Positions 36,965 through 62,842 of a stretch of DNA of 64,000 bases are shown here, piece after piece. Each line of letters starts with the position of its first letter. Positions within the stretch are counted from its first letter, which is position 1. Location of the stretch: positions 231,189,178-231,253,177 of the forward strand of contig CM057009.1 of assembly GCA_029891345.1 (NCBI GenBank), read 5' to 3'. The position numbers were made by a program, and so were the translations under genes. Source of the stretch: Dryococelus australis (lineage: Eukaryota > Arthropoda > Insecta > Phasmatodea > Phasmatidae). Below the pieces are notes generated by a model, which did not search any database, was not told where the DNA came from, and saw nothing but the letters and a program-made list of their open reading frames with translations.

Positions 36965-37840
36965 TTAGTCTTGTTTAGGGTTTTTCCCCCATGTTCAATT
37001 AAAATTTCACAAATTTCATTCATAGTATCCCACATAATTGCAGTTTCACCATTCAAATCCTCGTTATTTAGGAAATCTTCAATTTTTCCCTTGCCGTTAT
37101 TCAATGCCTTTTCAATATTGTCCAAAACACACAAAACTGTCGATATATTTTTACTAGATACAGCTTCGTGTTATACTGTAATGTTATTACGTCCCATTAA
37201 TGAAACACGTGCTCCATTTTCTAGCAGATAATCTACCACTTCCACGATGCCGTCTTGGGCCGCGAAATGCAGTAACAAATCCTTTTCTAAGAAAACCTGT
37301 TCACCCAAACTTTTTTTCAGTTTGGTAACGCACAATGTTTTTTCGATCTGCATTAGCCGCTTTTATCAACAATTTCCAGTCTTTGTGAATCCCTTTCACT
37401 ACCACGTCTATTGTTTGCACGAAATACACAAGTAGGTGCCAATTTTCAAAATAATAATTGGCATGCCCCAATACGGATATACCCGCTGAATCTATGGCTA
37501 AAACGTTGGATGTGAACGTTCTATTAGGAATTTTACAGTTTCGAAATTCCCCGCAGCGGCTGCTCGCTGAACTGGAAATTTACCACCAAAATCCTTTTCT
37601 TCAAAATTCAATTTCATCTCCTTCATGCGTACAAGTTCATCTAACCAACCACGATAAGCAGCTAAACTTACTGGCGACAGTTCCTTCTCGTCAAACAAAT
37701 CTTGTTTGTCTTCACTGGCTCTGATGGTGTATTCATTGGCTCTGATGGTATCTTCACTGGCTCTCATGGTGTCTATGCTGGCTCTCATGGTGTTTTCACT
37801 CTGTAGTTTGCAGAGAGCGAGTGTGATCCCTTGGTCCAAT
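36965..37840 (-). pseudogene. Ankyrin-repeat protein relic, first locus of the virus-like block
   Basis: Minus-strand gene of about 290 codons. Ankyrin-type units are visible (SPVSLAAYRGWLDELVRM; FPVQRAAAAGNFETVKFLIE; LLHFAAQDGIVEVVDYLLEN), typical of host-interaction proteins of large DNA viruses and of ordinary animal proteins alike. The N-terminal part carries heptad repeats TMRASED/TIRANEY encoded by a 21-bp tandem repeat. Broken, about two breaks. Whether it belongs to the virus-like block or to a separate insertion cannot be decided from sequence alone. Confidence 0.6.
37713..37802 (-). repeat. 21-bp tandem repeat, about 4 units
   Basis: TGGCTCTGATGGTGTATTCAT-type unit repeated four times in the N-terminal coding part of the ankyrin locus. 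It encodes heptads of the type T-I/M-R-A-S-E-D. Confidence 0.85.
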
Positions 37841-38390
37841 CGTCTCGTTTTTATACATGCAATGTGCGAGTTTTATTTTTATTTTTTTATTAATTAATTA
37901 ATTAATTTTTTTGCTGAGAAGGAATGTAAGTTTTTTTTATCGGCCGAGAAGGAATATAAATTTCTATATATGGCATTGTGAGTTTTACCTACCTTCATAT
38001 ATCGAATAATTTTGTGTTTTTTTTTTTTTTACTTTCCCATACACGATTAATTTCAGATGCAAAAAAAATTACTAGGATATGTCAGCACGATCTTGTCAAT
38101 TAAATGAGCGAAGTGTAAAAGAAAATTAAGCTTAGATTTATGCGAAATGTTAAAATGTAACGCCGATTGTTTTGTTCCAGCAATCATTACGCAAGTTTCA
38201 TTGCAAACTTGTTTATAATTTTTAACTTTCAAAACATTTTTATGTAAACGACAGATGGACTCATGAGAGAGCAGTTTGACTCGCGCTCTCTACCTCAGCA
38301 GTCGGGTAATCGGAGTTAGATTTTGTTTATCAAAGTTACCAAATAGAGCAGCGACCACTGATGAAACATATATCATTTAAACATTCGGTT
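37841..38390. other. AT-rich spacer in the virus-like block
   Basis: No gene. It contains an (ATTA)n run at 37,887-37,905 and T-runs at 37,932 and 38,018. It is one of the longer spacers in an otherwise tightly packed block. Confidence 0.6.
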
Positions 38391-38394
38391 ATTA

Positions 38395-38960
38395 CTTTTA
38401 AAATTTCAGAATAGTTTTGGCATTAGTGACGAAACTGATTGAAAACCCTTTGAGGTTTCTGGATGCCTCGGGAGATACAATCACGATTCGTTTGTTATCG
38501 GACCCGTAAACTAATTCGATTCCATTTTCAAAAGTCCATTCAATGTAAAATTGTTTGTAAATTAGCGGTTGGTCGAGTAAAGTTTAGTAATTTATTTCAT
38601 TGACATCCAATGAACCGTTGACTTGGGCGTCTTCGTTATCGTTTAGACGAATCATGAATATAGTTTGTGAATGTTCGTCCAAAAGTTCGGAAATCGTATT
38701 AGATGCTCCGAAATTTAACCGTTTCAAATTCTTAAATATTGACCGAGTTATTACACATCTGGGAAATTCCATAGAGTATCTGTTTGCCGTTTTTAAAACG
38801 TCATGCACGCCTCTTCCGACTTGATTTATGACTGTATAGATGATTTTTTTCGTCGGTTAAACTAGATTCGTTGGTATTTGTAAAATCATCGGTTTCGGTA
38901 GTAAATTCATTTTCTATAGATACGGTCGTGGTGGAGATCTAGTTTTTTCTTTCCAACCCA
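38395..38960 (-). pseudogene. Unrecognised protein relic
   Basis: Minus-strand frame of roughly 180 codons, with a stretch MHDVLKTANRYSMEFPRC in the middle and a C-terminal part containing IELVYGSDNKRIVIVSPE. No domain recognised. Predicted soluble, mixed alpha/beta from the hydrophobic pattern. About one or two breaks. It overlaps no other locus and is followed on the same strand by the ankyrin relic. Confidence 0.4.
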
Positions 38961-38965
38961 CCACC

Positions 38966-39450
38966 CTACTCGTCCAATTCTATTACAGAGGTGCCAAATA
39001 TGTGGCGTTTTTTCCAAATGTATATACCGAGTGGAATTACAATAATTAAACTAACTATGAGTAGACCCAATCCCACGTAGAGTTGTTTATTTCCTTTATT
39101 CATAGTTCTTATATATATTGGCAAACGATAGTAAAAACTCACAATTACATAGAGCGGTTGTCGGTTGTATAGCTGTCCATCGGGTGCCATGACGACCGAG
39201 CTCGGATCGCAAATGATTGTGGGCAAACCATAAAATATTTGCCGCACCGATGTTTGAATGACGTTTTCATCGTATTTTACCGACAGGTAAGTGAGGAATA
39301 CAGAAATTATTTCTCAAATTTGAGAATAACTCAAGGTATCGATAAGACGTGCCATAGATTTACGTATTTTTTGGGGATCGTTTGTCTTTGGAACACCCTC
39401 CTATAATGTATCTACCTCAGCCAATACGTCTTCGCGGTATTTTGAAAAGA
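38966..39450 (-). pseudogene. Membrane protein relic with C-terminal anchor
   Basis: Minus-strand locus. The C-terminal 93 codons contain a clear transmembrane segment (YVGLGLLIVSLIIVIPLGIY) followed by a basic KKRH and a short acidic cytoplasmic tail, the layout of a type I membrane protein. The upstream part is mostly polar. Not recognised as a known virion protein. About two breaks. Confidence 0.45.
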
Positions 39451-39452
39451 AT

Positions 39453-39660
39453 TTATTTATTTTTCACGCGATTGAATGTTTTTTCATACTTATGTCGTAC
39501 AGAACCAACTTTATTCCTAAATTCCTCAATTTGAAATGATAGGAAATTATCTTTGTATAGTAATTTTGTCAACTGTTTAATATTTCCATTTTCTGCATGT
39601 TGTTCGTCTCTCAAGAATATTTTATAATTTTCGCGAGTGACATTCGGGCCCAAACAATTT
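39453..39660 (-). CDS. Small basic protein, unknown
   Basis: Open frame of 66 codons, rich in Lys/Arg/Asn, helical (NIKQLTKLLYKDNFLSFQIE). No recognisable domain. It lies between two minus-strand loci with short spacing and could be a fragment of either. Confidence 0.3.
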
Positions 39661-39745
39661 TTAGGCTAGTATGCTGCTTAAGATACATAAAATTTAAACG
39701 CTGAGTTAATTGCGAAAATTAAAATTTTATTTCAGAAGCGAGTTT

Positions 39746-39809
39746 ATCACGTTCAGTCATTAACGAATATATATATAATCACGTTCAGTCATTAATGGAT
39801 ATATATATA
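39746..39809. repeat. 32-bp direct tandem duplication
   Basis: ATCACGTTCAGTCATTAACG plus a TA-run at 39,746-39,777, repeated with two differences at 39,778-39,809, in the spacer after the helicase relic. Confidence 0.85.
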
Positions 39810-39851
39810 TACATAATTTTTTTATTTGAGCGAGAAGAGTAATCGACACAC

Positions 39852-41187
39852 TTAAATTGAAATAGTGTGATTCGATGTTTGTAAAGGAAAAGAAAAAAAT
39901 CCGGGAATCTTTACCAAGTTTTCCTGCGCCCAGATCAAAATATATTTTTCGTTGAGTACCAAACGTGAAGCCGTTTTGATTTTCGTCTCAATCACAGTTG
40001 CCAACAACTCTACCGGATACTCAAAATCCAGAGTGAAACAACTCATGTTAAGATTGTGTAAGCCGAAATGACGTGTAAGTAGTTTCTTCCAATTCGGAGC
40101 GGTATTTAAAGTTTTCAGAAATTCCTGGTAGGTTGAATCCATGTTCTTAAACTGTGTGGTAAGGAAAAAATTATCACCGCATAGTTCACGAATAAGCGAT
40201 ATGGCATTGGGTTTGTTTGTCACAAACGGCTTTAGCTGATACTGTTCGCCCCAAAAAAAAAAACAAAAAAAAAATAGTTTACTAAAAGTGTGCTTCACCA
40301 TTTGGAAAAATTCAACTATAAATGTTGCTAGATATACGCTGATCATACTGTATTCGTCAACAAATAAAACAATAACCGCATCGAAGGAAATTGAATAGTC
40401 CTTGTTGCATTCCACAAAATACGAAGCCGTATTGTATCCGATATCGCAAAACTTGCTCAATTCTTGTATCACTGTAGATATTTTGTCAATATTATTCAGT
40501 GGGAATAACTGCATAAATTTCTAATATTTGTAGTAACTAAATTTAGTCAACCGAATTAGGAGACTTGATAACCTCAAACCATTTGCTAGTTTCATCTGTC
40601 GACAAATATTTCGCAATAGAGTATGTTGCGGGGTCGTGTAAAAAACTCTGTACTTTTTTCTTCGAGAAAAATATGCAATAATGTAGATTTCCCACTGCCG
40701 GCAGGACCATTTAACGTTATATATTTAAGTGTAGCCAACTCACCATCATTCTCATCGAGCCATGTAAACAAAGTTGTTTTAAAAAGTTCTAGTTCCATTG
40801 AAACAGTTAACTTTGCCGACGTAAAATTTGTCGTTGTTTCCACAGCTTTCGGTTCGGAATTCGATGAGTATACAAAAGTAATTAACTTGCCTTCGGGATT
40901 TTTACGTGGAATTCGTTGCGCCCATATACACATTTCATTACTACTCAACACATCTCTAAAACATAAACTCTAATCTCGTTTAGCCGGGAGGCCATGCTTC
41001 ACTCGTAGTTTATACTAGACGATTTTTCCAAAGGTATTGATCCGCGAAATGGGTTTTTTATATTTGCTGAGGAGATTTTCGAGGAACAGCCAAAAAAATA
41101 AAGGGACCATTGCGATATTTTAAACTTTCCACCATGGATGTTGCTGATATAATAAACTGAATCTTTTATAGTATATTTTTTATCCAT
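39852..41187 (-). pseudogene. SF1 helicase relic (Pif1/RecD-like)
   Basis: Superfamily 1 DNA helicase. The Walker A motif LNGPAGSGKSTLL lies near 40,700, the Walker B-type motif VLFVDEYSMI near 40,350, and a Q-L-x-P motif (QYQLKPF), typical of Pif1/RecD motif III, near 40,235. Total length would be about 445 codons with a start at 41,187. A Pif1-like SF1 helicase is known in nudiviruses (helicase-2), and a helicase is also present in white spot syndrome virus; eukaryotic Pif1 and Helitron helicases are longer. No Helitron Rep motif is present. Broken, about three breaks. Confidence 0.7.
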
Positions 41188-41276
41188 AAAAAATACAAAC
41201 CAATATTTTTTTTAGTTCGATATAGTGTAAATGAAAGGTTATATGTTGAGAAAAAGGGTAATGTATATTTTTTTTT

Positions 41277-41290
41277 GGTATATAAGACTC
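41277..41290 (+). promoter_or_regulatory. TATA box, divergent promoter region
   Basis: GGTATATAAGAC in the 297-bp gap between the minus-strand helicase relic and the next plus-strand locus, about 195 bp before that locus's first ATG. Confidence 0.4.
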
Positions 41291-41483
41291 TTAACTAAAA
41301 TATGGGAAGTTCGCAGAGTTTTTAAAACAATAACAATTTAGGTGATACCAATTTTAAAAGAGGGCTTTTACAATTTCAAAAAGTATAACAAATGAATATT
41401 AGAAATTTTTTTTCTTATTAACACGATAAAATTAACCGATTATAAAAATTTGATTTACAGTTTACAAAATTTACCATCATTGA

Positions 41484-43001
41484 ATGGCTAAACTTTTTTC
41501 TAAACTTTTTCAGGGAAACCTTTTGGATAATTTATATCAAGAAGAGGCGGGAAAAAAGGTATATGGGATTAAACGTATTAAACAAAAATTTTTAATTATA
41601 TCACAATGTTTACGTAGTTTGGAAACAAATTATGCGACTTTTAAACGTTCCCACATTGGCCTATTGGCAAATGACCCACATCACATTATTTGTGCAGTAA
41701 ACCAAAATTGTGCTGAACCATTTGATTTTTTATATAATGCAGATACCGTTTCTTTCGAGAATATTATCGACTTGGCGGAAATCGAATCAGAAAATAGTTA
41801 AATATTTATCAATCCACCCTAATTAAAATCACTTAAAGTTTCCCAACATCGTTTGAGATTTAATAATTCCGATATATTGGATAGATACAATAATTACATA
41901 ATGGTTGCCGAATCGAATTCGTTAAAAGACCTTGCCAAAATAATTAATAGTTTTGACAAAGTACTCGATACTTGTAAAACTGGATTCGTAATACTTGCGA
42001 AAAACTTACAACCTCGTGAGACTCTATATTTAACCAGGTTGATGCAGGATGTTAGTTCTAAATCGGGTAAATGTGTAAAACACGATTTTGAAGGATATGT
42101 AGTTTTCGTGTTGAACTACGCGAACGTAAATAATTCGATTATTAAATTTTAAAATGCGGTCACTTTACAATTATTGATATCCATCATCAGCCAAATCGAT
42201 AGTGATTTTACCTACGGGTTGGATGCTCAAACTACGGCAGCGGTCAAGTCATATAACAAGGGTAAAATTCTAACATCAAATATCATAAAATTTACTAACA
42301 AAGCGATCGTGGCGAAATTGTTTGAGTACACGGATAAAGAGATTCGCTTAAAACCCAATACTGAATTGGGAAAATTGTCAATTTCCGTTCTCGATGAAGA
42401 CAATGACTGATTGGGGGCACAAATCGTTAATAATTTACAACACCTATCAAAGAAACACTTGTTTTTTAAATGCACGTCTCAGTTTTATAAATCCGATACT
42501 AAATTGATCAACCTTCCCGTCGAGTATTTCAACCTACAAAATAATTTCGTCGTGCCGAATAACTTAAAGAATAATGTAGCAGTGACATCGATGAACAATT
42601 TGGTCAAAGTAATGATCAATAGTTCTACATCACTAGCACTCAACGCGGCTCAGATTCCCGTTCTCGATAAGTTAAAAGAAGAACACGTCATTGTTTATGT
42701 TCCATCTGGTAACAATTCATACATTTATCCCTTTCGTAGTTATACTATAGAGTCTTCTTTGAAATTCCAAAATTACAACCGAATATCAAATACAAAAACT
42801 ATCATGGTGAATGACGAAATTTAACATACTGATTTGAATAATAATAAATACCAATATTTTGCACTCATTCGATCCGCTTCAGAGCTGTTGATAGGAGAGG
42901 CGATGGAATTGGTCAACAACTAAAACATTACCTATTTGTTTCAAGTCGAAAGCAATTCAGTATCTCTGATGGACAATCCCAGGATCAAAAAGTACATTTA
43001 A
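41484..43001 (+). pseudogene. Large unrecognised protein relic (about 500 codons)
   Basis: Begins MAKLFSKLFQGNLLDNLYQ. One frame is kept over nearly the whole 1.5 kb, which shows this was a real gene and decayed recently. Helical N-terminal half (LQPRETLYLTRLMQDV), Asn-rich C-terminal half (VEYFNLQNNFVVPNNLKNNV). No known domain; predicted soluble. By size and position it could be a structural or replication protein. About four or five breaks. Confidence 0.6.
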
Positions 43002-43073
43002 AATGCGCAATATCAGCACGAAATGTTTGTTCTTTCAAACACATATTATTTTATTATATACCATCCAATAAAT

Positions 43074-43196
43074 ATGCCTGTTACTAAGCGACTAAACGAC
43101 GATCAAAATTTCCAGTTTTCCTACCCGCCATCCTCGTCCTCCTCTTCTTCCTCCACTCCTTCCACTAATATATTAGTAATTGGTTTTTCCAAATAA
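43074..43196 (+). CDS. Short Ser-rich ORF (40 residues)
   Basis: ATG at 43,074, 20 bp after a TATTATATA word. Basic start (MPVTKRLNDDQ), then a run of eight Ser, ending in a hydrophobic ILVIGFSK. It may be the N-terminus of the next locus, a possibility I leave open. Confidence 0.3.
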   Translation: MPVTKRLNDDQNFQFSYPPSSSSSSSSTPSTNILVIGFSK

Positions 43197-43199
43197 TTT

Positions 43200-44655
43200 T
43201 AAACAAGGCAAAAATTTTGGATTTGGATGTAAGTACTGCTAATGTTATCTTTTCGTTGAAACTAAATAACTACGAGCAAAATAGTCAAGAGGGGGTGTTT
43301 GAATCCTCGGATATGCTGTTTATTCATCAGTAGATATGAATTGGCATATAGTAAACAACCACGAATTAAAGTTGGTGGATCGTAGGAAAGTTCACGTAAT
43401 AGCTATCAATAAAATGCGAAATTCGTTAAACTCGAATGATGCGTTAATCAATTACTTTGTGACACTTACGTTTTCTCTAATTTCCATCTTTTTTTCTCAA
43501 TGTTTCCGAACAATTTTTCCGCGTTTTGATGACGAATTTGGCGACGTTTAAAAGCCAATGGACCAAATACACGCCCATTTTTGTTAAGACGGATAGGCTA
43601 AACGATAATTTTCAGGAAAACCAACTAAAAACACAACTTACCGGTGTTTCGTATAAAATGCGCACCACATCCAATAGTTCCATGTATCAATACATTTGTA
43701 TAGGAGATCTAAACACATCCCTGCTCTACGACAGAAACAAAAACGAGCAATTGTCCAAACGATCAGGTCGAATAAAACACTACGATTTGTCATTAGTGAA
43801 AACTATGATGAAATCCATCATTATGATAAAATGTTGAATTATTTATGTGTATCTAGTGCGAGTAAAATAATTAAAGTTATTGAGAGAGGAAATAGTTCAG
43901 ATAGCATTTACATCAATGATTTTTATGGTATAAATGATAAAATTATGGTGTATGTGGATTCGACAAGGAACCTCATACTACCTACTGGTGAAAATGTTAT
44001 TTATATTTCGTATACAAAATTTTGCATTACAAATAGGCTCGCATATTTAAAAGGAAATACTATTTTAACACCACAATATAAGATCAAATATCCTTCGAAT
44101 TTATATGCAACTAGTAATCTCGACACATTCAACCAAGAGTTGATCAGGGCGGCGAAAATGAGTCAGATGTGGGATTTTCTTCAAATCTTTCAATCCCTTT
44201 CCCAATTTTAATACCATATATTATAGACCATCTATTGTTGTTATACGTTGGGAGTCTGAGGAATATGAACCACCATTAAGAATTCTTTGGGTAAATATTT
44301 GTGCAAAATATATAACAATCCTACAGTGTGTGTGTTTTCTAAATCGAAAAAAAAAACAATCACAATATTCGCCCGAAAGTATATTTAAATTTGAAAGAAA
44401 CAAATCCAATACGAATAACAGAAGAGGAAACTCAAATAGAAAAACTTAAAAAAAATTCCTTTTTATCTATTTGGTACATTCGGGTGAGAAAGGGAATTTG
44501 TGCACCCGTATAATAGAGTACGTAGATAATGAAAATAAATTTAACCACAAAATCTTTATCCGTCAAACTGGGGAAAAAAAACTTTACGACCACCCACTAC
44601 ACATAAAATTATATGTGTATGAACACGACAAAGATTTAAAAGAGATTTGACGTAT
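43200..44655 (+). pseudogene. Large unrecognised protein relic
   Basis: Plus-strand locus of up to 480 codons. Segments such as KIMVYVDSTRNLILPTGENV, YKIKYPSNLYATSNLDTF and VIRWESEEYEPPLRILWV indicate a mostly beta, soluble protein. No family recognised. It is followed after about 115 bp by another plus-strand frame. More than five breaks. Confidence 0.5.
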
Positions 44656-44771
44656 TACAAATAACACCTTTCACTTTAAAAACAATTTTCGTGTGAAAGA
44701 AAACCGTAATTTTGACCTTTTTGATGGTGGTAAGTTGTGTTGTGCTCGAAGGCACTCAATAACAGTAAAAC

Positions 44772-45083
44772 ATGGCGGCTGCCAAAATATTTGCAGCTGC
44801 TGAAAAAAGTTATACTTTTTTCAACAATTTGATTCAAAATGTAAATGTTTCGAAAACTAAAACCACTACTGCTACTTTAAACACTAAAGATGAACGTAAA
44901 GAGAAACGAAAATTTACAAAACAACACCTTCGATTGGCAAATTTTTTTTTTAAATACGATTACACCGACCCTCATGACTATCGTATTTATGCAAATAACG
45001 CAGATGACGATTATAAAAACCATAATCATAATGATATTTTTAGCACATATAGCATTAATTTATGTAAGTCATTATTGATATAA
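44772..45083 (+). CDS. Hypothetical protein, 103 residues, looks whole
   Basis: MAAAKIFAAAEKSYTFFNNL start with an amphipathic N-terminal helix, a Lys/Arg-rich middle, and a Tyr/Asp/Asn-rich C-terminal part. A/T-rich with AATAAA repeated just after the stop (45,083-45,095). No recognised family. The basic middle suggests nucleic-acid or membrane-surface binding, but that is a guess. Confidence 0.4.
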   Translation: MAAAKIFAAAEKSYTFFNNLIQNVNVSKTKTTTATLNTKDERKEKRKFTKQHLRLANFFFKYDYTDPHDYRIYANNADDDYKNHNHNDIFSTYSINLCKSLLI

Positions 45084-45125
45084 ATAAATAAATAAAAGAA
45101 ACATTTAAATATTTTTTCTACTTTT

Positions 45126-45147
45126 CTCTCTCTCCCCCTCTCTAACG

Positions 45148-45178
<31 letters not shown>
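45126..45178. repeat. (CT)n microsatellite
   Basis: CTCTCTCT runs with one interruption (CCCC...AACG) for about 50 bp, in the short spacer before a TATA box. Confidence 0.9.
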
Positions 45179-45179
<1 letters not shown>

Positions 45180-45183
45180 ATTG

Positions 45184-45194
45184 GTATATATAGT
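45184..45194 (+). promoter_or_regulatory. TATA box
   Basis: GTATATATAGTG followed 12 bp later by TTCAGAG (initiator-like TCAG), 79 bp before the ATG at 45,263. Confidence 0.5.
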
Positions 45195-45262
45195 GTGGTA
45201 TTCAGAGTGTTGTAGTAAACTTGTAGTTGGTGTAAGTAAAGAAACACATCAAAGCGCTCCAG

Positions 45263-45603
45263 ATGGCTACGAAAATAAACATCAACATTTTCACAGAGTC
45301 GACCGAAATGACTTATAATAAAGTCGTAAATAAGTATGACGTTGAATCAATTACCTTTATCATCGATAGGCTGACGAAGAATGTTTGGATATTTCTTTAC
45401 TTTCATCAAGAAAGGTATCAAAAAAAACTAAAAAGTTATTTGTAAACACAGTTTGCGAGATTTTCAAATTAGCCAAGGATCGACAATTACATCACACAAA
45501 ATACTCACCTGTTGAACTCTATGACTTGTTACTTCTACCCACGCGTGACGAAGAACAACTACCTATTAAGAAAGTCTCTCAATTTAGCTATTATAAATTT
45601 TGA
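45263..45603 (+). pseudogene. Small unrecognised protein relic (about 110 codons)
   Basis: Starts MATKININIFTESTEMTYN; the C-terminal half is helical and charged (VNTVCEIFKLAKDRQLHHTK, then LPTRDEEQLP). It has its own TATA box at 45,184 and ends 60 bp before the convergent PIF-0 relic. The pattern of a short N-terminal part followed by a KYSPVELYDLL segment resembles no family I can name. One break. Confidence 0.45.
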
Positions 45604-45661
45604 TAAAAGGTAGAGATTTGTATAAAAGTCGCCATTACTAATAAAATAACTGATACAAAAA

Positions 45662-51700: not shown

Positions 51701-51839
51701 GTTTTTTATTAGTGTGTTTGGAAGCAAGATTGTGGCCTACTATAATTGGTTGTTGATTTCCCCCACTCCGTATTTCAACAGCCAATCACATTGCAGCATT
51801 TTATTTCCCCTACCTCCCGCTCATTTCAGTTTGCCTATA

Positions 51840-52680: not shown

Positions 52681-52688
52681 GAAGCTGT

Positions 52689-53248
52689 TTGAGGTGTACA
52701 CAATCTTGTCGCAGATACCCAGTTTTATCCGATCGGCATTTCAAATTACTCTCAAATATTTTGGCAACTTATTGTATAATTGATAGCCCACTAAATTCCC
52801 TTACCGACATTTCATTAACCGACTATTTAACAGTCGATTTTGCAAATCACTTTCCATGTGATATGATAAACAAAAAATCATTCACAATGGATGTGCAAAA
52901 TCAATCTCGACTGGTTGTGGCTGTTGTAAACAAAAAAACAATAATTCCACATTAAACAAACAGTTGAATCTTATCTTGCAAGCGTATCTCTGGTACCGTA
53001 ATTTTCCACTAAATTTTGTGTACCTCGAATTGAACTCTGAGTTGGATTCTCTGCTTGCAGGAATCAATGATTTCAACGAGCGGTTTGCACTCATAATGCC
53101 AAATGGCAAACCGATACTTTCGCTCTTCACCAAGATGGATCGTGGGATATTAAATCCCATTAATGTTAATTTATTGACAGTTCTCGAATTGAACACACCA
53201 GACTATCAACACATTGTTGGTATCTCACACTCAATTCTTGTTGACTAG
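52689..53248 (+). pseudogene. Unrecognised protein relic (about 185 codons)
   Basis: Plus-strand frame; N-terminal half with TDISLTDYLTVDFANHF and C-terminal half with FVYLELNSELDSLLAGIN and GKPILSLFTKMDRG. Soluble, mixed structure. It ends almost on top of the convergent minus-strand locus. One break. Confidence 0.45.
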
Positions 53249-53640
53249 TTTGCATATTCCCATTTTTTTGTCCGTGACTTCGTCCCTAAGTTGTTTCATC
53301 GTTTCCCTTAATTTAAAAAACTCGTGCACTTTATCGCCAAAGTAATCGTTACTAATCTCATCAAATCTCTGGAGGTAAACACTCATCAATTTCAATGTTA
53401 ATTCTGTCCATTAATCCACAATGTTGACATAGTTGACATATGTATGAGATGTGTAGAATATCTGCTTGCTTCGAATAAAGTTGTCTGTCGCAATGCACTA
53501 CTCATCAAGTCGCGATTTGTCATCCACACAAGTTTTTGGAAGTTCAGCGCATTTCGATTTTATTCTATTCAAGTACTCTTCTTCGAAATTTATCGAAAAT
53601 ATTTAGCCCATTTTTTAAACTAGTTCTTATTAATAAAGAG
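53243..53640 (-). pseudogene. Helical protein relic, probably coiled coil
   Basis: Minus-strand reading with long charged helices (VHEFFKLRETMKQLRDEVTD at the C-terminus; EEEYLNRIKSKCAELPKT near the start). About 130 codons. No family. Spaced tightly between a convergent locus and a divergent one. Two breaks. Confidence 0.4.
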
Positions 53641-53641
53641 T

Positions 53642-54097
53642 GTGTTTGATCTAATCAGGTTTAGCAGTCATAATCCATATTCTATAGACCGCATTTATTA
53701 CGAGTATCAAGATGTTGCATGTAGAAAAACCCTAGACTATTTTATTCGAAAGAAGCAGAGTTACGATGAGACCCGGTTGGACCATTTCCTCGACAACGAC
53801 AAGAGGGAATTGTTACTCTATTTGAAAAATGTTCACCAGACGTCCGATAGATACAATACAGTCTTGAAAAAAGCCAACGAGTTTTACACTTTTAATTAAA
53901 AATCAAAGTTACTCTCGTTTTACAAACAGCTCGAAATTTACGAAAGTGTTCAGAGACCAATTTCTTTGGCACTGCGTTTGAACGATGTTTGGTGTTCCTT
54001 GCAAATGGAGATTGTGGAAACGTTTAAACTTTTTAATTTTTTTCCACCTTCTTTTGTAAACGAGGAAAAGGATATTCCTTGCACCTTATTGTGCTGA
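53642..54097 (+). pseudogene. Unrecognised helical protein relic (about 150 codons)
   Basis: Starts near 53,642 with MFDLIRFSSHNPYSIDR; charged helices DETRLDHFLDNDKRELLLYL and a C-terminal half with QRPISLALRLNDVW. AATAAA-like A-runs follow at 54,103. No family recognised. One break. Confidence 0.45.
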
Positions 54098-54140
54098 AAA
54101 AATAATAAAAAAAAATTTTAACTACAAAAAAAGCAAATTT

Positions 54141-54150
54141 GTATATAAAG
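54141..54150 (+). promoter_or_regulatory. TATA box
   Basis: GTATATAAAG followed 25 bp on by TTTCGTATT, about 130 bp before the nuclease relic; the spacing to the first ATG resembles the other plus-strand TATA sites in the block. Confidence 0.5.
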
Positions 54151-54277
54151 AGACGAGAGTGCCTATTTGTTTCGTATTAATTGTTTTCCTTTCGTAAGAG
54201 AATAGTAATTTTGGGGCATATAGAACTGAGAGATTTGTAAGATTTGGTATCTCAGAGAAAAAACTCACAAGTATTCG

Positions 54278-55008
54278 GTGTGCAATGATCTACGCAAAAC
54301 CTTTATCACTGCTTCGACATGTGTTTCAAACACCTTTCCCATATTTCAGTCAAAGAAAAGGGCCTCTTACATCCTGAATATGTCCAAGTTTTCCATCGGG
54401 CCATATGCTGATTTCCGAACCTATGACGATCCAGTAGCCGCAATCGAAGGAAAATGGAAAAAAATTCAGCCGAGAAGTCATTGATTTGGGAGTTCATCTA
54501 CATACAAATATCGAAAATTACTACAAATCGAAAGCGCAAAAACTACCCGATGTGATAGACGATACGTTTACACAATTTTTAGATTTCGACCGTGATGTTA
54601 GACAAGCTAATGGCCGGACAATATATGTGTCGAAGCTAAGAGTGTGAGATTTTGGTTTCGCTCTTTGTGGAACCATCGACATACTTTTCAAGTCCAAGCA
54701 GGGTGATTTTGTGATGGTCGATTGGAAACTTTCGCCAAAAACTTTCGCAGAATCTCGCAGCGATTATTGTCTGGGACCTCTGTAATGTATTAGTATCACA
54801 AATAAACAAGTACTCTTTGCAGCAAAATATTTATCGTTATATATTCAACAAGGAAAAAAATTATATTCGACCATGTGCGGACGGAAAATCACCGATATGT
54901 ATCTGCTGCAAATGCACTCAAACCTGTCGAATTACGAGTTACTGTCGGTAGTTGATTTTGACGAAAATGTGATTGAGAAATGTTTAATTTACACAATCGG
55001 TAATCAAT
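54278..55008 (+). pseudogene. PD-(D/E)XK exonuclease relic (RecB/MGME1-like)
   Basis: Single-strand DNA exonuclease of the PD-(D/E)XK superfamily. Visible in order: RKTFITASTCVS (a start like that of MGME1-type nucleases), the helix motif DLGVHLHTNIENYY near 54,490, the first metal-binding Asp in CGTIDILFKSKQG near 54,675, then VMVDWKLSP (the D-x-K part) near 54,720. The Y-x-S-L-Y-I helix near 54,835 is typical of this family. About 235 codons, the length of a minimal nuclease. In a virus it would process replication or recombination ends. Broken, about three breaks. Confidence 0.65.
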
Positions 55009-55027
55009 AAAAATTGTTTGGTTTTTA

Positions 55028-56424
55028 CTACTTGTCATCTTGAAATTTGTTATATTCTTCTTCATTCATTGTTCTTGTATTAGCATTTGATTTGTTGAAA
55101 TGATCCAAGTTTGGCCTGAAGAAAATTCGGTCGTTGGTCAGGATGCTGTTCTGGCACAGTTCGTAGATGGGTTCGAAACGCCAAGTCAACACTGTCGATT
55201 CGTTTGCATTTTTGAGTACTTTTAGCGCCATTTCATACGAAATGTGTTGACCCGTGTAATTTTCCTTTGGTATCTGTACGAGTAGAGATTGATTGACGAT
55301 CGCGAACGAGAATGGCTCGTCTTTAAAGTTTTCCAATCTCGCCATATCATGTATGGCCATGACGTTTCGAAAAATGAAGTATTATGGTAGAGAAATATTA
55401 TCAATCACCCGACGTTGGTATTCTTCATACCAGTCATTAAGATGGTGATTATTAAACAGCTGCAAGATACCAATTAATGGGCCGCGATATTCTTCCTCCA
55501 AGGGCAAGTTGATAAAGTAAAAGGCATGGGCTTGGTCGAGGATTGTAGGTCTTATTGATTTTTTTGTAATTGGTTGCAGCTACAATTAAAACATTATTTT
55601 TCATTTGAACACCTCCTTCGAGACTGGTTTATAGGGTAATTGCCACACTTCGTAAATAGGGTGGAATTGCCAAGTTTTACGAAACTATCTCGTCGATTTC
55701 GTCCAGGGATATCACGAATCACTGGTTCTGGTTCTCGTTGATCATCTTGAACAAGTTGGCTAATTTGCATTTGGTATCACCGATGGTGGGCGAGGATAAC
55801 TGCCCGATGTTGATTTGATAGAGTTTGGATATCCATTCGGATGCGATTGTGTGGGCCAGTGTACTTTTACCCGTACCCAGAGGACCGAAAAACATAAATT
55901 TGAATCGTGGGTTAAACACCTGCGTATAAATTAAAATGCTGAGTTCTGCTTTCAACTGGTCGCGGCCAGGTACATCCTTGAAATAAAATTGGGGTTCGAT
56001 TCGCCAGGGGTCCAGCTCGGGTGTAATCTCCGAATTCGATTCTCCTCCAAATAAATCGCTCGCATTATTTGGGATTCCGAAAGTAACCCAGAAATAAACT
56101 TTCAAACTCGGCCATTAAACATTCGAGGTTATTTTTCAATAATAGCGCGCATCTAAAAATTGCCAATTTTTGTACCAAGTACACCCACGATTTGTAAATA
56201 GTGTATTGATTTTCAGCCACTGTAGATTTACGGTTCGTTGAAATTTTTGAAAATTCTTCCCTTAAACCAAAGAGCGTAGTCTCTAAATCATTTAAAAGAT
56301 TGTCACCTTTCTCCGAAGTGATTTGTGTTTTTTTTAAGCGAAGATGACAAACACTATGCACGGTACAGCATTTGAGATAATTTCTCCACATTTGTGTGTT
56401 CGCCAAATTCGATTTTCGGCGCAC
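55028..56424 (-). pseudogene. AAA+ ATPase relic, Vps4/katanin-like
   Basis: Minus strand. The N-terminal third is helical (ENQYTIYKSWVYLVQKLAIF), compatible with a three-helix MIT-type domain. Then comes a segment KDVPGRDQLKAELSILIYTQ equivalent to the WSDVAGL start of Vps4-class ATPases. Walker A FFGPLGTGKST lies near 55,880, GDTKCKLANLFKMINENQ near 55,755, and a Walker B ISLDEIDEI near 55,700. A C-terminal region reaches 55,028. About 460 codons, close to Vps4 length. Vps4 disassembles ESCRT-III filaments in membrane remodelling. Such a gene is not one I know from baculoviruses or nudiviruses. Broken, about four breaks. Confidence 0.65.
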
Positions 56425-56694
56425 ATGTAAATTGAATCAGACCAGCTTCTACGATGGCACGAACATTTTCATTGAATGCTTTTTTTTTAATCTGGGTTTT
56501 CCACAGTTCTTATAAGATAATTTTTTGTCTTTATGCGACACCAACAACAGCAACAGCAAAAAACCTCGTTTCCATAATTGCAACTTCAACCACTCAGACC
56601 ACAGTGCACTAACTCTGACATTCTCGTAACGAACCAGCAATCTTCTTCTCATCTTCTAAATTCTTTTCCTTCCTCTCAACAACGACATCCACCT
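56425..56694. other. Spacer between divergent loci
   Basis: Contains a minus-strand open frame of 67 codons with a Leu run (FLLLLLLVSHKDKK), probably chance in a CAA-repeat stretch. It separates the AAA+ relic and the next plus-strand locus and presumably holds their promoters. Confidence 0.3.
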
Positions 56695-57414
56695 ATGACT
56701 GAAATGTCCATTCCTCTCATCGGCATGCGAATAGAGCTAGATGATGGTCAAAAATAATTGGCTCATAAACTTAGAAATTACACATCTCGATTCGTGGAAA
56801 TTTTGATGGGAATCCAGACAACCATCAAGCAAACAAAAAAGGTGGTCGGTGATACTTCTTTTGTGTTAAATACCTCGGTGGCTATGAAACGAGTGGCTAT
56901 ACATTTCGCCGAGCTCGGCCGACTAGAATCGGAAATGGTGAATGATGGAACGGTCAGTCATCAGTACATGGAAATTATAAAATCCATCCTCGATTCGAAA
57001 TATGAAGACTTGCCGGAAAATATAATACGGTTCGGTCGAATCCTTGAACAACAAAATCTCCTAACCACATATACTCTTGTTAAAATGTAGCTGAACGGAT
57101 CCATCGAAGCACAGCCTGTACTTAACACTCATTCGTTCATAAAACACATTAAATTAGATCAACCTTTGCAATCTCCATTCGATGCATTTATGAAAGCAGC
57201 TTTGGAAAAATGCAGCAACAGAAAAAAAATCGACTATGAACTTTGTTGTATAATATCGGACAATTTGGAAAAGAACAAAGCGTATGTCTTCAGCGAACTC
57301 AGACAAGAATTTCTACCACTGAGTGAATTAACATTCAAAATGCATCTTTCAACACCTTCAAGGAACAGTTCGATGGATTTTATAAAAAGTCTTTGTTTGT
57401 TATCGAACTGGTGA
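56695..57414 (+). pseudogene. Unrecognised helical protein relic (about 240 codons)
   Basis: Starts at 56,695 (MTEMSIPLIGMRIELDDG). One frame kept throughout. Helical with NYTSRFVEILMGIQTTIKQT, MKRVAIHFAELGRLESEMVN and ALEKCSNRKKIDYELCCII. No family recognised. Two breaks. Confidence 0.55.
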
Positions 57415-57531
57415 ATAAAATAACTTGCAATATATCTAATGTATATGCAAATATTCAAGTTTTGTAAAAAAAATTGTTAATAAAAAATATTTCTTTTTAC
57501 AAGTTGTTTTTTTTTATTTGTGTATTTTGTA

Positions 57532-57544
57532 AATGTATATAACC
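57532..57544 (+). promoter_or_regulatory. TATA box
   Basis: TGTATATAACC followed 29 bp on by TCATCAG (initiator-like), about 150 bp before the ATG at 57,692. Confidence 0.5.
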
Positions 57545-57691
57545 CATGAGTTTGAGTTCTGTGCTCTTGTCATCAGATATATTTTCCTCGCGTCATAATC
57601 GTTAAACTCTACAAGTTCATATAATTCCCGTTGGGAAAACAAATGTTCAACATTATAAGCTACCATAATACCTAATATAAGAGCGAAAATC

Positions 57692-58401
57692 ATGTCTGGC
57701 GAAATCGTTGGTGAATGTGTTCTTATTTATAACGACCAGATACGTATTGACACCTTTGATGTTGATTTAGCTATTCACAATATCCTTAAAACTTTCGAAT
57801 TAGGCCTAACGGTTGTAAAGAATAATTTCCTCATAAATTTAAATAAAACCGATATTGATAATGTGCGATATTTATTTAAGAATATTTCACCAGTGTTGGA
57901 TCAATCAGTCAACTATTATGACTACAAGTGGCTGGTGCTCATCGAACAAAATTGGTGAACCGAACACACTATATCGACCAATACGAATAGCATCTTCAAT
58001 TCACAGGCAATGAGAATTTCGCATTCGACTTTCACAACAACGCCAACAATGTGCGTGAAGTAAAACGTCAAAAGACTCCACCGCAAAATGAAAGAATCCC
58101 GATAATGAACCAGGTTCAGACATCACCCGTGTATTTTAATGAACTATTGGCAATCAACACACCTCACATTTTCGTCGTGGACATGGTGTTTCAATCAGAT
58201 GTTTCAAACAACTATTCGTCCGAGAATCTCGTACAAGAACAACACCAATTACTAGAGCAAAACCAATACACATCAAATTTGGTACCTAATAATTACATAC
58301 CCAATAAACAACTAGAATTACCAAAGCAAGAACAACAAACTATTAATTACATACTTGACGAGCAACAACAACAATTACTAGAGCAGAACCAACTTAGCTA
58401 A
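57692..58401 (+). pseudogene. Unrecognised protein relic with Gln/Asn-rich C-terminal half
   Basis: Starts MSGEIVGECVLIYNDQIRID; the first 88 codons form a compact mixed domain. A later part becomes Gln/Asn/Leu-rich with imperfect internal repeats (LLEQNQYTSN and LLEQNQLS, about 130 bp apart, each from CAATTACTAGAGCARAACCAA). It looks like a flexible or prion-like tail. No family. One or two breaks. Confidence 0.5.
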
Positions 58402-58600
58402 CGAACAAAATATTTTAGAAAAAGTACAAGAGTTGTACACTAGAAATCCAGGCTGCCCACACGACAAAACTTCGACATGAGTCGATGAGTGGATGTTTTT
58501 GGTTCAAACACCAAATATTTCCGAACAAGCAATGATTGGATTGTATAATGGAGGTTGTGAACTACAAGCTTTCATCAAACAGGCACTAAATTAGAAACTT
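58402..58600 (+). pseudogene. Short relic, possibly the tail of the preceding locus
   Basis: Plus-strand segment with WMFLVQTPNISEQAMIGLYN and GGCELQAFIKQALN before a stop. The size and amphipathic pattern suggest a small helical domain. Its relation to the locus before it is unclear. Confidence 0.3.
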
Positions 58601-58732
58601 TCAAACAAAGTGGTGGTGCTGAATACATAGTTCTAAAATAACAACTTCTGACACTGGATTTTAAACTTGACCAGATTAAACATAAATACAACATACGTTA
58701 CTAAAGTTTATATATTAAGATTATTTAATAAA

Positions 58733-59560
58733 ATGACTGATGAAATAGAGGGGAAAATGTTTTACCTCGATCGATCTAGACACAATGCAAGTAAAACCTC
58801 AAATAATTCAATCGACTATAACAAGAGTGGTGACAGATAATCCCCAATTACAACGATAACAACAACAACGATAATTAACTATATCCCCAACTCTGGCATT
58901 TTCGATTCAAAACATTTCGCCCGATTATAACCTATCAGATTTTTTAACCTTCCAGTCTCTTAAAAGCTCGTCTGTATGTTGTAATCAACAAACATCACTC
59001 GATGATTTAATGTTCAATGCCTTACGATGCACAATCTAACCCCTTCGAATGAAGATGTGATGGCTGGGGGAAGCAGTAAAGAAAACGATCCAACTCGGAT
59101 AAATGAGGTAAACACACCGGTCGAATTCGACCCGACGACTCAAATTCAAATAAACGTTCCTCCCGAGAGGGACTTAACCCTTGTTCCACAAGTTGCTACA
59201 TTACCCGATGAGTTGCAATTTGCCACGAGGGAAGAAAGCGATACATCGCCATCGTCCAACCAAACGGCCCCATTATCTGATGAATTCATCATCAATTTGG
59301 CAAAGGAATGGGGCAAAAAAATAGTAAAGCCATTAACCCAAAAGAATTACTTTATAGTATCCACTTTTGCAAAGAATTCATGGAACGAACATACGACAAC
59401 AATCAAGTAAAAGCGGCCCTTTCTCTCGCTGAAATGCATTTGCTTAAATTGGCTGCAGAAAAGAAGTGTGCGACAATCTAAGAATCGCGATCGAATCTTA
59501 TCGAAAAGACAATGCATACCTTACATAATTTACCCTTCCGGGAAAAAAAGTGCGAAGATT
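58733..59560 (+). pseudogene. Unrecognised, partly disordered protein relic
   Basis: Begins near 58,733 (MTDEIEGKMFYLDRSRHN). A Pro/Glu/Thr-rich, probably disordered middle (DPTTQIQINVPPERDLTLVP) is followed by a helical, basic C-terminal part (LAKEWGKKIVKPLTQKNYF). The layout of a disordered linker plus a small folded end is common in viral phospho- or scaffold proteins. No family. About four breaks. Confidence 0.4.
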
Positions 59561-59693
59561 AATAATTTCGTAAAAGAGGATTGTTGTTAATAAATTTTTT
59601 GTCCGGGCACCGTCTCATCGCCTCGAGCCAATTGGGAACAAATTTAAAAGACTTAGAAAATTGAAGGTACGATTTAAAAACTTGTAGTGTATT

Positions 59694-60044
59694 TCACGCA
59701 ACAATAATATAGTCAATTAAAAAGCCATCTTCCACCTTCTCGGCCAAATTTGCAAAAACATCTTTATATTTTTGCGTATATTTTTCGGTATCAATTTTTT
59801 TGTATTTTATAAACCCCTTGTATGAATTGGAAGAAAATTTCTTCTTGGCATCGATGATTTCCGTAAAATCCATCAATAAAACACCTGCGAAAAACGTCGC
59901 CAAATACAACTTTGATTCTGCGATGTATCTCCTATATTCTAATTTTAGCGTAGGTTTAACGGAAATTATACTTTCTTCGAAAGGAACTTTACCGAAATCA
60001 AGATCTTTTCTTTCGTGAATCAATATTCTTACACTTCGATGCAC
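59694..60044 (-). CDS. Hypothetical protein, 116 residues, looks whole as a short frame
   Basis: Starts MHRSVRILIHERKDLDFGK; beta-rich first half, then a hydrophobic stretch SKLYLATFFAGVLLMDF, then a charged helical end. No family recognised. It lies next to the chitin-binding locus on the same strand. Confidence 0.45.
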   Translation of the reverse strand: MHRSVRILIHERKDLDFGKVPFEESIISVKPTLKLEYRRYIAESKLYLATFFAGVLLMDFTEIIDAKKKFSSNSYKGFIKYKKIDTEKYTQKYKDVFANLAEKVEDGFLIDYIIVA

Positions 60045-60127
60045 TATTTTGTCGTTTTTTGGAAAGATTTTTTAATTTTCAATGGCCGGTTGTAGTTGTT
60101 TATTCCTATCGCGTTGTGTGAATAAAA

Positions 60128-61262
60128 TCAATTTGTATCCGGCACTATTTTAAACCTTAACTGCAGTGATGAGTATTCTGGTAAATGACAGGGAACAGGA
60201 AGGACATCGAGGGTGGGATTTTCACAACTACCGGTGTCTACATTGAATACTTTATCAACATAGGGATAAGTCAGGCGACATCTATCGCATTCGAAATACA
60301 AATATTTTAATTTTTGATCACATTCTTTCAACTGTTCGACTTCTCCATTTCAGCAAAAATAGGCATTAATCTTATACAGATGCATAATACAACCATTTTC
60401 GTTTTGCAAAGATTCGGCAAGTAGACGGTTTATTCTGCTTTTAGAAAGTCCGTGCTCACATTTGACGATTTCTGGTAATCCGTAATTACAAACGATGTAG
60501 GCATCGTCCGCGTAAGGCAATCTGATTTTGTTTAATTTGTCGACACAAACGTTGCCAATATCCCACTCCATCCTAATCGCATCATTGTTCGTACGGCACG
60601 CGGTGCCATCAAAAATCATATTCTTTGGGCATACTTCCAAAATCCATTTACGATCACGCCCGCATCTCATATGCATATCCTCGAGTTTTTTGTTATTGTT
60701 TGCGGATTCGGAGCCATCGATGTTCACCAAGTTGCAATATTGTTCGTACGTTATGTAATCGACTTGGTTCGGATTACTGCACTCACTGTACATCAACTGC
60801 AGACCTTCGGAAATGCTCAGTTTCAGTGAGATCGACGCAAAGTTTAAGGGATTTAAATCACCGCGTAGCGGGATTTTACAATCTGTCCCGACTTTGACGA
60901 GTTTCGGTGAAAGTGTTTGCGTGTCACTACGTTTGAACCAATTTTGTTTCTCGAAATTCCATCCCTTTTCGTGAGTTGTTTTGCCCGATTCGCCGAAAAA
61001 TATTCACCTAGATTTTCGAACTTTCTGCATTCTCTGCGCCCGTCGGAAAAAACTTCGTACTCGCAATACCTATTCGTTTTACACAAAGTGACAAATTTAA
61101 ATTTTTTCATTTTTGACTGGGTTCAACCTAAACAAATCTTTACCCGATATCACAGGATCGTATTTTGTAGTTTTCGCATGTAGTAAAAACAAATACACCA
61201 ACAGTATTACAAGCGATAATACAGCTTGAACGATAATGCTAATCGAGTAGGAATCCATCAAT
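60128..61262 (-). pseudogene. Chitin-binding membrane protein relic, PIF-8/VP91-like
   Basis: Minus strand. The N-terminus at 61,260 has a signal-anchor (IIVQAVLSLVILLVYLFLL). Several Cys-rich segments of the peritrophin-A kind follow: CKTNRYCEYEVFSDGRREC, CGRDRKWILEVCPKNMIFDG, then YADDAYIVCNYGLPEIVKC, then ECDRCRLTYPYVDKVFN. Baculovirus VP91 (PIF-8) has the same plan of an N-terminal anchor followed by a chitin-binding region, and helps the virion pass the chitinous gut lining. Length (about 375 codons) is shorter than baculovirus VP91, so the assignment is tentative. Broken, about three breaks. Confidence 0.5.
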
Positions 61263-61325
61263 GCATTTCATTCTCTCTTCCTCTCACACTCTCTCTTAGG
61301 GAACAAAAAAATCAAAGGATTACTT

Positions 61326-61724
61326 TCAAAACCAATGTATTTGAAATATACCAGCCGATATCGGCTGCTTCAACACAAATAAAATCGTCACAATAACCAC
61401 CCATGCAATAAGGTATAAATAATCAAAGGTATTTTTAAAAGTATTTACCAAAATTCGATTTTGTGATTCAGACTCGATGGCTTCCAGTTCCGATGATAGT
61501 TGGACCATTTTGCCAAATTCATCCACGAAAATAAACCACGGCGAATCGATGGAATGAAGCAGATCTACTAGTCTAGATAAATAAAATTCATATTTGAGAT
61601 ACATATCAAACCTTTTTAAAATAATCGATTTCCATACGATTTCATTTATGCTTTTATCCAGCATGTATAAAACTCGGCCATCGGATGTGTAAGTTTGAAT
61701 CAAAGGCGTTGTACCATTTAACAC
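61326..61724 (-). CDS. Membrane protein, 132 residues, looks whole
   Basis: Starts MLNGTTPLIQTYTSDGRVLY; a soluble alpha/beta part (PWFIFVDEFGKMVQLSSELE), then a C-terminal hydrophobic segment (YLYLIAWVVIVTILFVL) that should span a membrane, and a short tail. Tail-anchored layout. Not recognised. It lies next to the PIF-8-like relic on the same strand, 60 bp apart. Confidence 0.5.
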   Translation of the reverse strand: MLNGTTPLIQTYTSDGRVLYMLDKSINEIVWKSIILKRFDMYLKYEFYLSRLVDLLHSIDSPWFIFVDEFGKMVQLSSELEAIESESQNRILVNTFKNTFDYLYLIAWVVIVTILFVLKQPISAGIFQIHWF

Positions 61725-61889
61725 TTAATTCAAATGCTCGATATTGAGCGAAGATTTTTTTTACCAAGCATCTTTTTTTTTTTTTTTTTAATTATCGGCC
61801 AAAATCATCAAAGAATCGAACCACATCCCCTCTAGAAGAAGGTGCATAATCTCCGTAAAACCAGATGTTTTCGTGTAAACCGAGCGCCG

Positions 61890-62499
61890 CTTACACCACG
61901 AGTTCCGTGAAACGTTCGATGATCGTCAGTTGACGATCGTGGGGGATGTGGAAATGACATTTGAGGTATCGTACGCTGCTGTGAAAAATATTTTTCGCGA
62001 TATGTTGAAGTTGATGAAAGGCAAGTGTCTCGCGCCGGTTAAATTCCAACTGCTTGTACCTACATTCCAACAACACAACAATTTACGCACGCATGAAATT
62101 CACTTCGAGAAATGAAGGGCGAATATGTCATTTTATAAGTGATCTTGACGACTATGTGCTGAAGGAACTGGCAGTCACCAGCATTTATGGTTTCACCGAA
62201 AGGCGGCTCTTCAAATCTCTGTATCCGTGGAAAGTATTGGATGATGTAAGGAAAATATTCACCAATTGGCATGGCAAGATGGCGAAATTCCCTGTGATGA
62301 AATTGAAAGGGAACTATTTCAATTGATAAGGAGCCAATACAACAAATATATAATATTTGTTGCAGGTTCACATCAAATACAATGGCTAAAGAAGTTGCGC
62401 AAAATCGATCATTATCTCGAAATTGTGGATTTGCAAAAAACTTACAAATGCCCATCATTTAAGACTGGTAGCTATATATGGGAATACAGGCAATTATGA
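61890..62499 (+). pseudogene. Relic of an uncharacterised, recurrent short protein family
   Basis: Plus strand. An upstream part has DDRQLTIVGDVEMTFEVSYA. The main part has SDLDDYVLKELAVTSIYG, YPWKVLDD and IPCDEIERELFQLIRSQ. It continues with IIFVAGSHQIQWLKKLRK, KTYKCPS and KTGSYIW. From memory, this pattern (F-x-V-K-E-L-A ... Y-x-E-L-E ... V-x-G-x-E-K-x2-W-L ... G-C-P-S) recurs in uncharacterised arthropod and virus-associated proteins. It might be a nuclease-like fold, but no catalytic set is clear. About two breaks. Confidence 0.4.
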
Positions 62500-62842
62500 T
62501 TGTTGGAGACACTTTCGTGGATTTATGTGAGTAGATAGAAATTAGAAATTATTGCATTTGTGATTCCGCGATAATGTAGTGGCAAAATGGGAAGAGTTCC
62601 AAAAACAACAAAATTTAAATAAATTTTTTCAAAGACTTTACATTTAAAGTTTTTGGTGCATATTCACAATAAAAGATATAGTTCGACCGGATTGCTGCAG
62701 GTCATTTCATTTCATACAATGAAATTGAAGATGACTGACAAAAAAATCACATTGTCTTTGACTATATTATATATTTCACAAATGTATTTATTTTGTAAAT
62801 TAAAATAGTTTTACATTTTGTTTGTAAATTAATTTTTTTTAT
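62500..62842. other. AT-rich spacer near the right edge of the virus-like block
   Basis: No gene supported. A 29-codon frame at 62,719 (MKLKMTDKKITLSL, then hydrophobic) is too short to judge. Confidence 0.5.

Follow-up and report, generated by a model that had tools for sequence, protein, structure and literature searches.

It is rare for large DNA viruses to turn into dispersed repeats, and two insertion-sequence copies with cargo between them and one target duplication around the whole are the mark of bacterial composite transposons. The element described here, which was met in a 64,000-nucleotide stretch of the genome of the stick insect Dryococelus australis (C17:231,189,178-231,253,177; "the window"), has the same layout, is known from sequence alone and has an animal virus genome as its cargo: the locus is one damaged or truncated copy of a dispersed element of ~100 kb in which a naldavirus-like genome lies between two copies of a transposon, which we call T. 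The nearest known systems are endogenous nimaviruses and Teratorn, the latter having one set of transposon ends.

Endogenous nimaviruses of crustaceans, estimated at 22 to 477 copies per haploid genome, are likewise large DNA viruses of the class Naldaviricetes present as repeated giant elements, and their insertion has been tied to an acquired recombinase, much as the units here are bounded by a transposase (PMC10871703). They differ in having a tyrosine recombinase or Ginger2, whereas here an IS1595-type enzyme is present in two terminal direct copies; in size, with 268-579 kb for nimavirus elements called complete versus 60, 74, and 100 kb here; and in host and target, since the host here is a stick insect and no telomere, 28S rDNA, or (AT)n target was seen by eye in three flanks (PMC10871703). 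P33 and PIF-5 were not detected here, in searches without a positive control, which is a further apparent difference (PMC10871703); lef genes are reported absent from nimaviruses (PMC10271883) and LEF-8 and LEF-9 were not detected here either. Teratorn, a teleost piggyBac-herpesvirus fusion, also joins a large DNA virus genome to a cut-and-paste DNA transposon, but its virus, host, and transposase superfamily are different (PMC5601938, PMC10175614), and the virus described here has a complete transposon on each side. The order Lefavirales and its endogenous forms share PIF-0, -1, -2, -3, and DNA polymerase B with the element (PMC10271883, PMC12548425), whereas LEF-8 and LEF-9, which mark that order (PMC10271883), were not detected; flanking transposons are not mentioned in the part of the account of ant endogenous elements on which we draw (PMC12548425), in contrast to the two T found here.

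Our results suggest, with a probability that we put at roughly 0.6, that an endogenous naldavirus-like virus took the form of a giant composite transposon and spread in this form through the germline of the stick insect. The three complete elements examined (E2, E3, and E4, chosen because both of their T had been fetched [E2] or listed [E3 and E4]) all consist of T, viral genes, and T, with the two T in direct orientation and one 8-bp duplication enclosing the entire unit. Each element carries the same outer 8 bp at its two ends (Table 1), and the inner flanks, GGTCTTTT, AGTCTTTT, and TGTCTTTT following the left T and ACCGCATA, ACCGCTTA, and GCCGCTTA preceding the right T of E2, E3, and E4, respectively, are nearly alike across elements and unlike the outer 8 bp; the target duplication therefore belongs to the whole 60-100 kb unit and not to each T, in 3/3 elements. 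T itself is ~3 kb long and encodes a transposase of the IS1595 type, which we take to be Merlin, and Merlin target duplications measure 8-9 bp. The T transposase would recognize the outermost inverted ends and move the whole unit as cargo, or it might have moved virus DNA made during replication; either way a large DNA virus would have given rise to at least 150 chromosomal copies.

Recombination between T copies is the main rival to such movement by the transposase. A circular virus genome with one T would enter a chromosome where a solo T already resided, by homologous recombination between the two, a pair of direct T could recombine into a circle and a solo T, and the 8-bp duplication would be that of the resident T, a course of events that we regard as possible but unlikely. 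It fits the direct orientation of the two T, the greater number of first-look candidates for T than for P74 (2364 versus 618), the circular genomes of known naldaviruses (PMC10271883), and an arrangement at C17:272.51-272.59 Mb, where a single T separates two consecutive P74 copies, as would be the case for tandem elements joined head to tail. It also fits the solo T that we call S1 (L051; C6:69,287,600-69,292,000), which has a perfect duplication of the same kind (CTACATTT) and an open transposase frame of 323 amino acids (PF12762, E-value 1.3e-10; NCBIfam IS1595, 1.6e-15 and 57.6 bits, under its cut-off of 75), and which means that T either moved alone or remained after recombination. A second T chosen as having no listed viral gene nearby, S2, proved to be T followed by viral interior, and its 5' part was unmatched.

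The T sequences bear on this choice in both directions. Pairing of the two T of E3 in the 5' part (support 0.91 and 0.93) and of E4 in the 5' part (0.84 and 0.69) and the 3' part (0.93) favors recombination, whereas the two T of E3 are unpaired in the 3' part, at a Kimura two-parameter distance (K2P) of 0.185. Under recombination the 5' parts of the right T should be alike, but those of E2-E4 differ by 0.147-0.172, more than the 0.107-0.120 of the left T. The 8 bp on the two inner sides of T, moreover, show no duplication (NGTCTTTT versus NCCGCNTA), and for this reason we also rejected the idea that T had simply transposed into a viral circle. Left and right T within an element differ over the 5' 1.15 kb by 0.126 (E2), 0.127 (E3), and 0.134 (E4), against 0.107-0.172 between elements, and over the 3' 560 bp by 0.134, 0.185, and 0.128, against 0.125-0.206. 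The T trees are near star-like, which points to an old burst. With a rate of ~3e-9 per site per generation, and if both T were alike at insertion, the 5' values correspond very roughly to 20 million generations. Dating by frame breaks is unreliable in this genome, since error-prone PacBio continuous long reads (CLR), reported to carry many indel errors, underlie the published assembly (PMC10268593).

The genome-wide distribution of T and of the viral genes connects the two and bears on a simpler account of the locus. Searches covered 3,415,067,245 bases in 646 contigs, and all copy numbers are lower bounds, since only part of the candidates was scored. All 150 scored candidates matched for T and for P74/PIF-0, the latter with 62-100% identity to the window piece, so that each is present in at least 150 places. 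There are 36 T-P74 pairs within 120 kb versus 1.58 expected, 32 of them in one relative orientation, with T 11.5-17.0 kb left of P74 in 17 and 24-83 kb right of it in 13. A listed viral gene lies within 100 kb of 76 of the 150 listed T, against 5.2 (maximum, 10) in 200 rounds of random placement. This linkage and the target duplications led us to reject T as an unrelated neighbor. That the locus is a single fossil, as had been supposed at first sight, was rejected on the dispersed P74 matches. A related possibility is one integration by illegitimate joining near a T-rich site, with later multiplication through segmental duplication or through unequal exchange among copies of T; the abundance of T and the truncated or deleted state of the window copy and E2 would agree with it, but the 150 listed P74 places are spread over 15 contigs, and the three complete elements have three different 8-bp duplications, whereas segmental duplication would bring host flanks along. 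We consider it improbable.

Besides P74, a cysteine-rich gene gave 154 matches (150 of 552 candidates scored; 150 matches listed and used), and all 150 scored candidates for PIF-3 (of 269) matched, the best at 9.5e-21 and a single open piece at 3e-24. PIF-1 gave 79 matches with 83 of 170 candidates scored (best, 5.1e-15; single open piece, 4.4e-15) and PIF-2 gave 39 among 104 scored (best, 1.1e-9; single open piece, 5.9e-12). DNA polymerase B gave 33 matches with 93 of 204 candidates scored, of which 13, in multi-exon rows on C3, C4, and C11, were excluded as host genes, leaving ~20 of the element type. PIF-1, PIF-2, and PIF-3 were found in 0/14 control genomes, the named ones being bacteria and archaea and thus of little bearing on insects. 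Two relatives of PIF-3, P0001 (208 amino acids, 63% identity) and P0002 (211 amino acids, 53%), lie on 1.2-kb contigs, and a wider search for PIF-3 relatives added none. Near the right end of a second copy of the element, pieces at L019:2972-6459 resemble DNA polymerase B by eye; five of them gave no Pfam polymerase match when scanned, and one tried against the PDB gave no match.

These genes mostly keep one order. The cysteine-rich gene lies at +7.0 to +29.3 kb from P74, in one orientation, in 34 of 39 pairs within 80 kb (1.05 expected), and PIF-1 at +3.8 to +9.3 kb from P74 in 21/26 (0.76 expected). Relative to the cysteine-rich gene, PIF-2 is found at +7.5 to +15.4 kb in 15/18 pairs (0.38 expected), PIF-3 at +5.9 to +51 kb, on the plus strand, in 38/48 (1.45 expected), and polymerase B 26-62 kb to the right in 6/6; polymerase B also lies 10-12.5 kb left of T in five of eight pairs. 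Summarized from these pair distances, with dUTPase placed from L009 and L044 only, the main order in kb from the left T is P74(-) at ~13, PIF-1(-) at ~22, the cysteine-rich gene(-) at ~38, dUTPase and PIF-2(+) at ~51, PIF-3(+) at ~60-72, polymerase B(-) at ~85, and the right T at ~97. Pairs that do not fit (P74/cysteine-rich, 5/39; P74/PIF-1, 5/26; cysteine-rich/PIF-2, 3/18; cysteine-rich/PIF-3, 10/48; T/P74 orientation, 4/36) may reflect inversions, neighboring elements, or chance.

The four PIF genes make the element naldavirus-like, and we do not assign it to any family. PIF-0, PIF-1, PIF-2, and PIF-3 exceeded their curated cut-offs, and DNA polymerase B matches accompany them; all four families of Naldaviricetes share these five, as well as PIF-5 and P33 (PMC10271883), and PIF-5 is stated to be present in all sequenced members (PMC12548425). 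By analogy, the PIF proteins and the polymerase would formerly have enabled an infectious virus to enter by the oral route and to replicate its genome. Profiles for PIF-4, PIF-5/ODV-E56 (PF04639; 3 candidates scored), and P33 sulfhydryl oxidase (PF05214; 22 candidates) gave no match in the genome, nor did those for LEF-8 (PF04941; 3 candidates) and LEF-9 (PF05094; 15 candidates), in searches run without a positive control. We therefore speak of LEF-8 and LEF-9 as not detected and do not file the element under Lefavirales, which these two genes mark. Core-gene profile searches, as proposed in the initial annotation, found PIF-0 to PIF-3 and polymerase B. The description given there of an endogenous naldavirus stands as regards a virus-derived, naldavirus-type origin and the unusual gene content, and was incomplete in that the locus is a T-bounded repeat. 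A chance resemblance to naldavirus proteins, in a gene cluster that belongs to the host or to a transposon, would sit with the five profiles that gave no match and with the fact that most pieces have no known family, but it is contradicted by four PIF families over curated cut-offs, linked with polymerase B; other viruses are reported to have no identified PIF homologs (PMC10271883), and the joint presence of PIF-0, -1, -2, and -3 speaks so strongly against a nonviral cluster that we regard one as very improbable.

Several points weigh against spread as a composite transposon or against its viral assignment. No movement was observed; the near star-like T trees do not separate transposition from recombination, and the two T of E2 are never sisters; 74 of the 150 listed T lack any listed viral gene at a distance of up to 100 kb; and the complete elements are only three, a small and chosen sample. 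The LEF-8, LEF-9, PIF-4, PIF-5, and P33 results count here too, and scans of IMG/VR gave no relative, so that no tree places the virus part. On the whole evidence, movement of the entire unit by the T transposase still seems to us probable.

The copies are not evenly distributed over the chromosomes. C17 holds 39 of 150 listed P74 places and 37 of 150 each for the cysteine-rich gene, T, and PIF-3, where 14.3 would be expected by length (p 5.6e-9 to 6.0e-8), together with 16/79 of PIF-1 (p 3e-3), 14/39 of PIF-2, and 8/20 of the polymerase. The lists for P74, the cysteine-rich gene, and T comprise the best matches to queries derived from C17 and may be biased accordingly, but the PIF and polymerase profiles are free of that bias. 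C17, at 326.6 Mb the fourth largest of the nine contigs whose lengths were compared, is presumably the X chromosome, which is Scaffold_4 in the published assembly (PMC10268593).

Table 1. Features of the window copy (window coordinates) and the three complete elements (contig coordinates)
Feature	Position	Strand	Length	Basis
Left terminal T: IS1595-type DDE transposon, ~24-bp inverted ends	33295..36370	+		Ends by comparison with other T copies
IS1595-type transposase, open piece	33722..34399	+		DDE_Tnp_IS1595 (PF12762) E-value 4.6e-9, 36.9 bits, cut-off 27
39-bp / 117-bp tandem repeat inside T	34566..35280	.		Tandem Repeats Finder; matched in T of L017 and L023
Virus-derived interior	36371..64000, onward beyond the window to at least ~104,953 (window scale)	.		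blastn to second copy
Piece with weak ankyrin-repeat match	37498..37872	-		Ank_2 E-value 5.9e-4, under cut-off
Two P-loop NTPase pieces, type unproven (putative SF1 helicase of the initial annotation)	39852..40969	-		Matches under cut-off, best 0.0045
P74/PIF-0, conserved region, two frames	45662..46778	-		Pfam Baculo_p74
Probable N-terminal part of P74	46779..47580	-		Position only; 47,161-47,580: 0 families
Collinearity break with second copy	51700..51710	.		blastn ends at 51,707
AAA-family ATPase piece	55719..56114	-		PF00004 E-value 8.5e-9, 36.4 bits, cut-off 21.2
Cysteine-rich protein, membrane-anchored as judged by eye	60128..61267	-		Genome search with 60,350-61,003
E2	C17:236.84-236.90 Mb		59.6 kb	Outer 8 bp TTCTTAGG/TTCTTAGG
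E3	C2:274.49-274.59 Mb		99.7 kb	Outer 8 bp TCTTTATT/TCTTTATT
E4	C2:191.95-192.02 Mb		74.5 kb	Outer 8 bp AACCTATT/AACCTATT

In the window the element starts at 33,295, the left end of T, and continues at least to ~C17:231,294,130, where the match to the second copy ends; the limits first drawn, 36,965 and 62,500, were thus too narrow on both sides. The window T is flanked on its left outside by the 8 bp TGATATTA and stands alone, with no T match of more than 80 bp within 80 kb to its right. Its 39-bp repeat translates on the minus strand as a repeated peptide. The interior matches the second copy at 85-90% identity in pieces within 36,547-51,707, and L012-L013, which lie to the right of the window, match the second copy's L019-L020. 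From 51.7 to 64 kb blastn found no DNA match except short repeats at 51.7-51.9 kb, and the second copy has a deletion or rearrangement in the corresponding region. Because P74 and the cysteine-rich gene are only 14.3 kb apart in the window copy, versus 19.2-26.1 kb in 21 of the 34 ordered pairs, ~10 kb seems to have been lost near 51.7 kb, probably including PIF-1, for which no place at ~51.7 kb is among the 79 listed matches (83/170 candidates scored). Telomere-type repeats, three or more in a row, were found neither in the window nor in L009-L028.

Among the genes first proposed for the locus, P74/PIF-0 was confirmed by Baculo_p74 matches in two neighboring pieces, 46,023-46,778(-) at E-value 1.2e-7 (32 bits; cut-off, 23) and 45,662-46,033(-) at 6.8e-5 (23 bits, right at the cut-off), and in another copy (L022:1-747) at 1.7e-8; a longer open piece in copy L006 gave a weak Baculo_p74_N match (0.007, under cut-off), and a protein search with P74 returned 350 candidates, 0 with E-values of 0.001 or less. 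The AAA+ gene likewise held up (Table 1). The supposed chitin-binding anchored protein is the cysteine-rich one, which found no support as such: the window piece and an open relative of 400 amino acids had 0 Pfam families at E-values up to 1, and there was no PDB match. The same Pfam result was obtained for the piece taken for an MGME1-like gene (59,694-60,071), and the proposed superfamily 1 (SF1) helicase yielded P-loop matches all under family cut-offs, in the window and in the second copy (best there, 0.0039). A further 44 window pieces reached 0.01 at best against Pfam, and PDB searches of element pieces gave no meaningful match. A 21-bp tandem repeat lies at 37,707-37,800, within the ankyrin-like piece, and the second copy shows a similar repeated peptide. 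Extension past the window, also suggested at the outset, revealed BRO-N (9.5e-17) and dUTPase (5.4e-23) directly to the right, in L009, and a PIF-3 match with 4 stops inside the same element at C17:231,280,140; PIF-2, just right of the window, was weak (0.0028) and under cut-off.

A contrast with a gene-poor left flank, drawn in the initial annotation, was not confirmed by frame counts. Bases 1-33,293 contain 56 stop-to-stop frames of at least 100 amino acids versus 17.3 (maximum, 26) in shuffles, and the interior from 36,370 to 62,500 contains 38, where 20 order-1 Markov shuffles gave 6.5 on average and no more than 11. Since the left flank is equally rich in long frames (16.8 per 10 kb; interior, 14.5), frame counts cannot tell the two apart. 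The flank at 1-33,000 is GC-richer and has more long frames than its shuffles.

The literature that we covered, from which preprints and most subscription papers were absent, contained no naldavirus-like elements in stick insects and no Merlin-virus fusion, and the word "virus" does not occur in the main text of the D. australis genome paper (PMC10268593). We give about even chances to the broader proposal that the element represents an undescribed, family-level lineage of Naldaviricetes living, or once living, as a eukaryotic composite transposon, its whole genome having been picked up by two autonomous Merlin/IS1595 elements and taken to no fewer than 150 places in the stick insect genome, with an excess on the X. 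If this is true, large DNA viruses have, to our knowledge, joined with cut-and-paste transposases in three ways, the present one being the first in which a complete transposon stands on each side of the virus. Teratorn and the endogenous nimaviruses, the cases compared, each accompany an acquired recombinase; the present one adds an insect order, another transposase superfamily, a composite architecture, and at least 150 places with datable ends, so that the repeated conversion of animal DNA viruses to transposons by transposase acquisition becomes testable. Our results suggest that large DNA viruses of the insect and shrimp type can spread through chromosomes as jumping DNA, and in D. australis, a critically endangered insect with a reported 1.56 Gb of unclassified repeats (PMC10268593), the element may account for part of those repeats.

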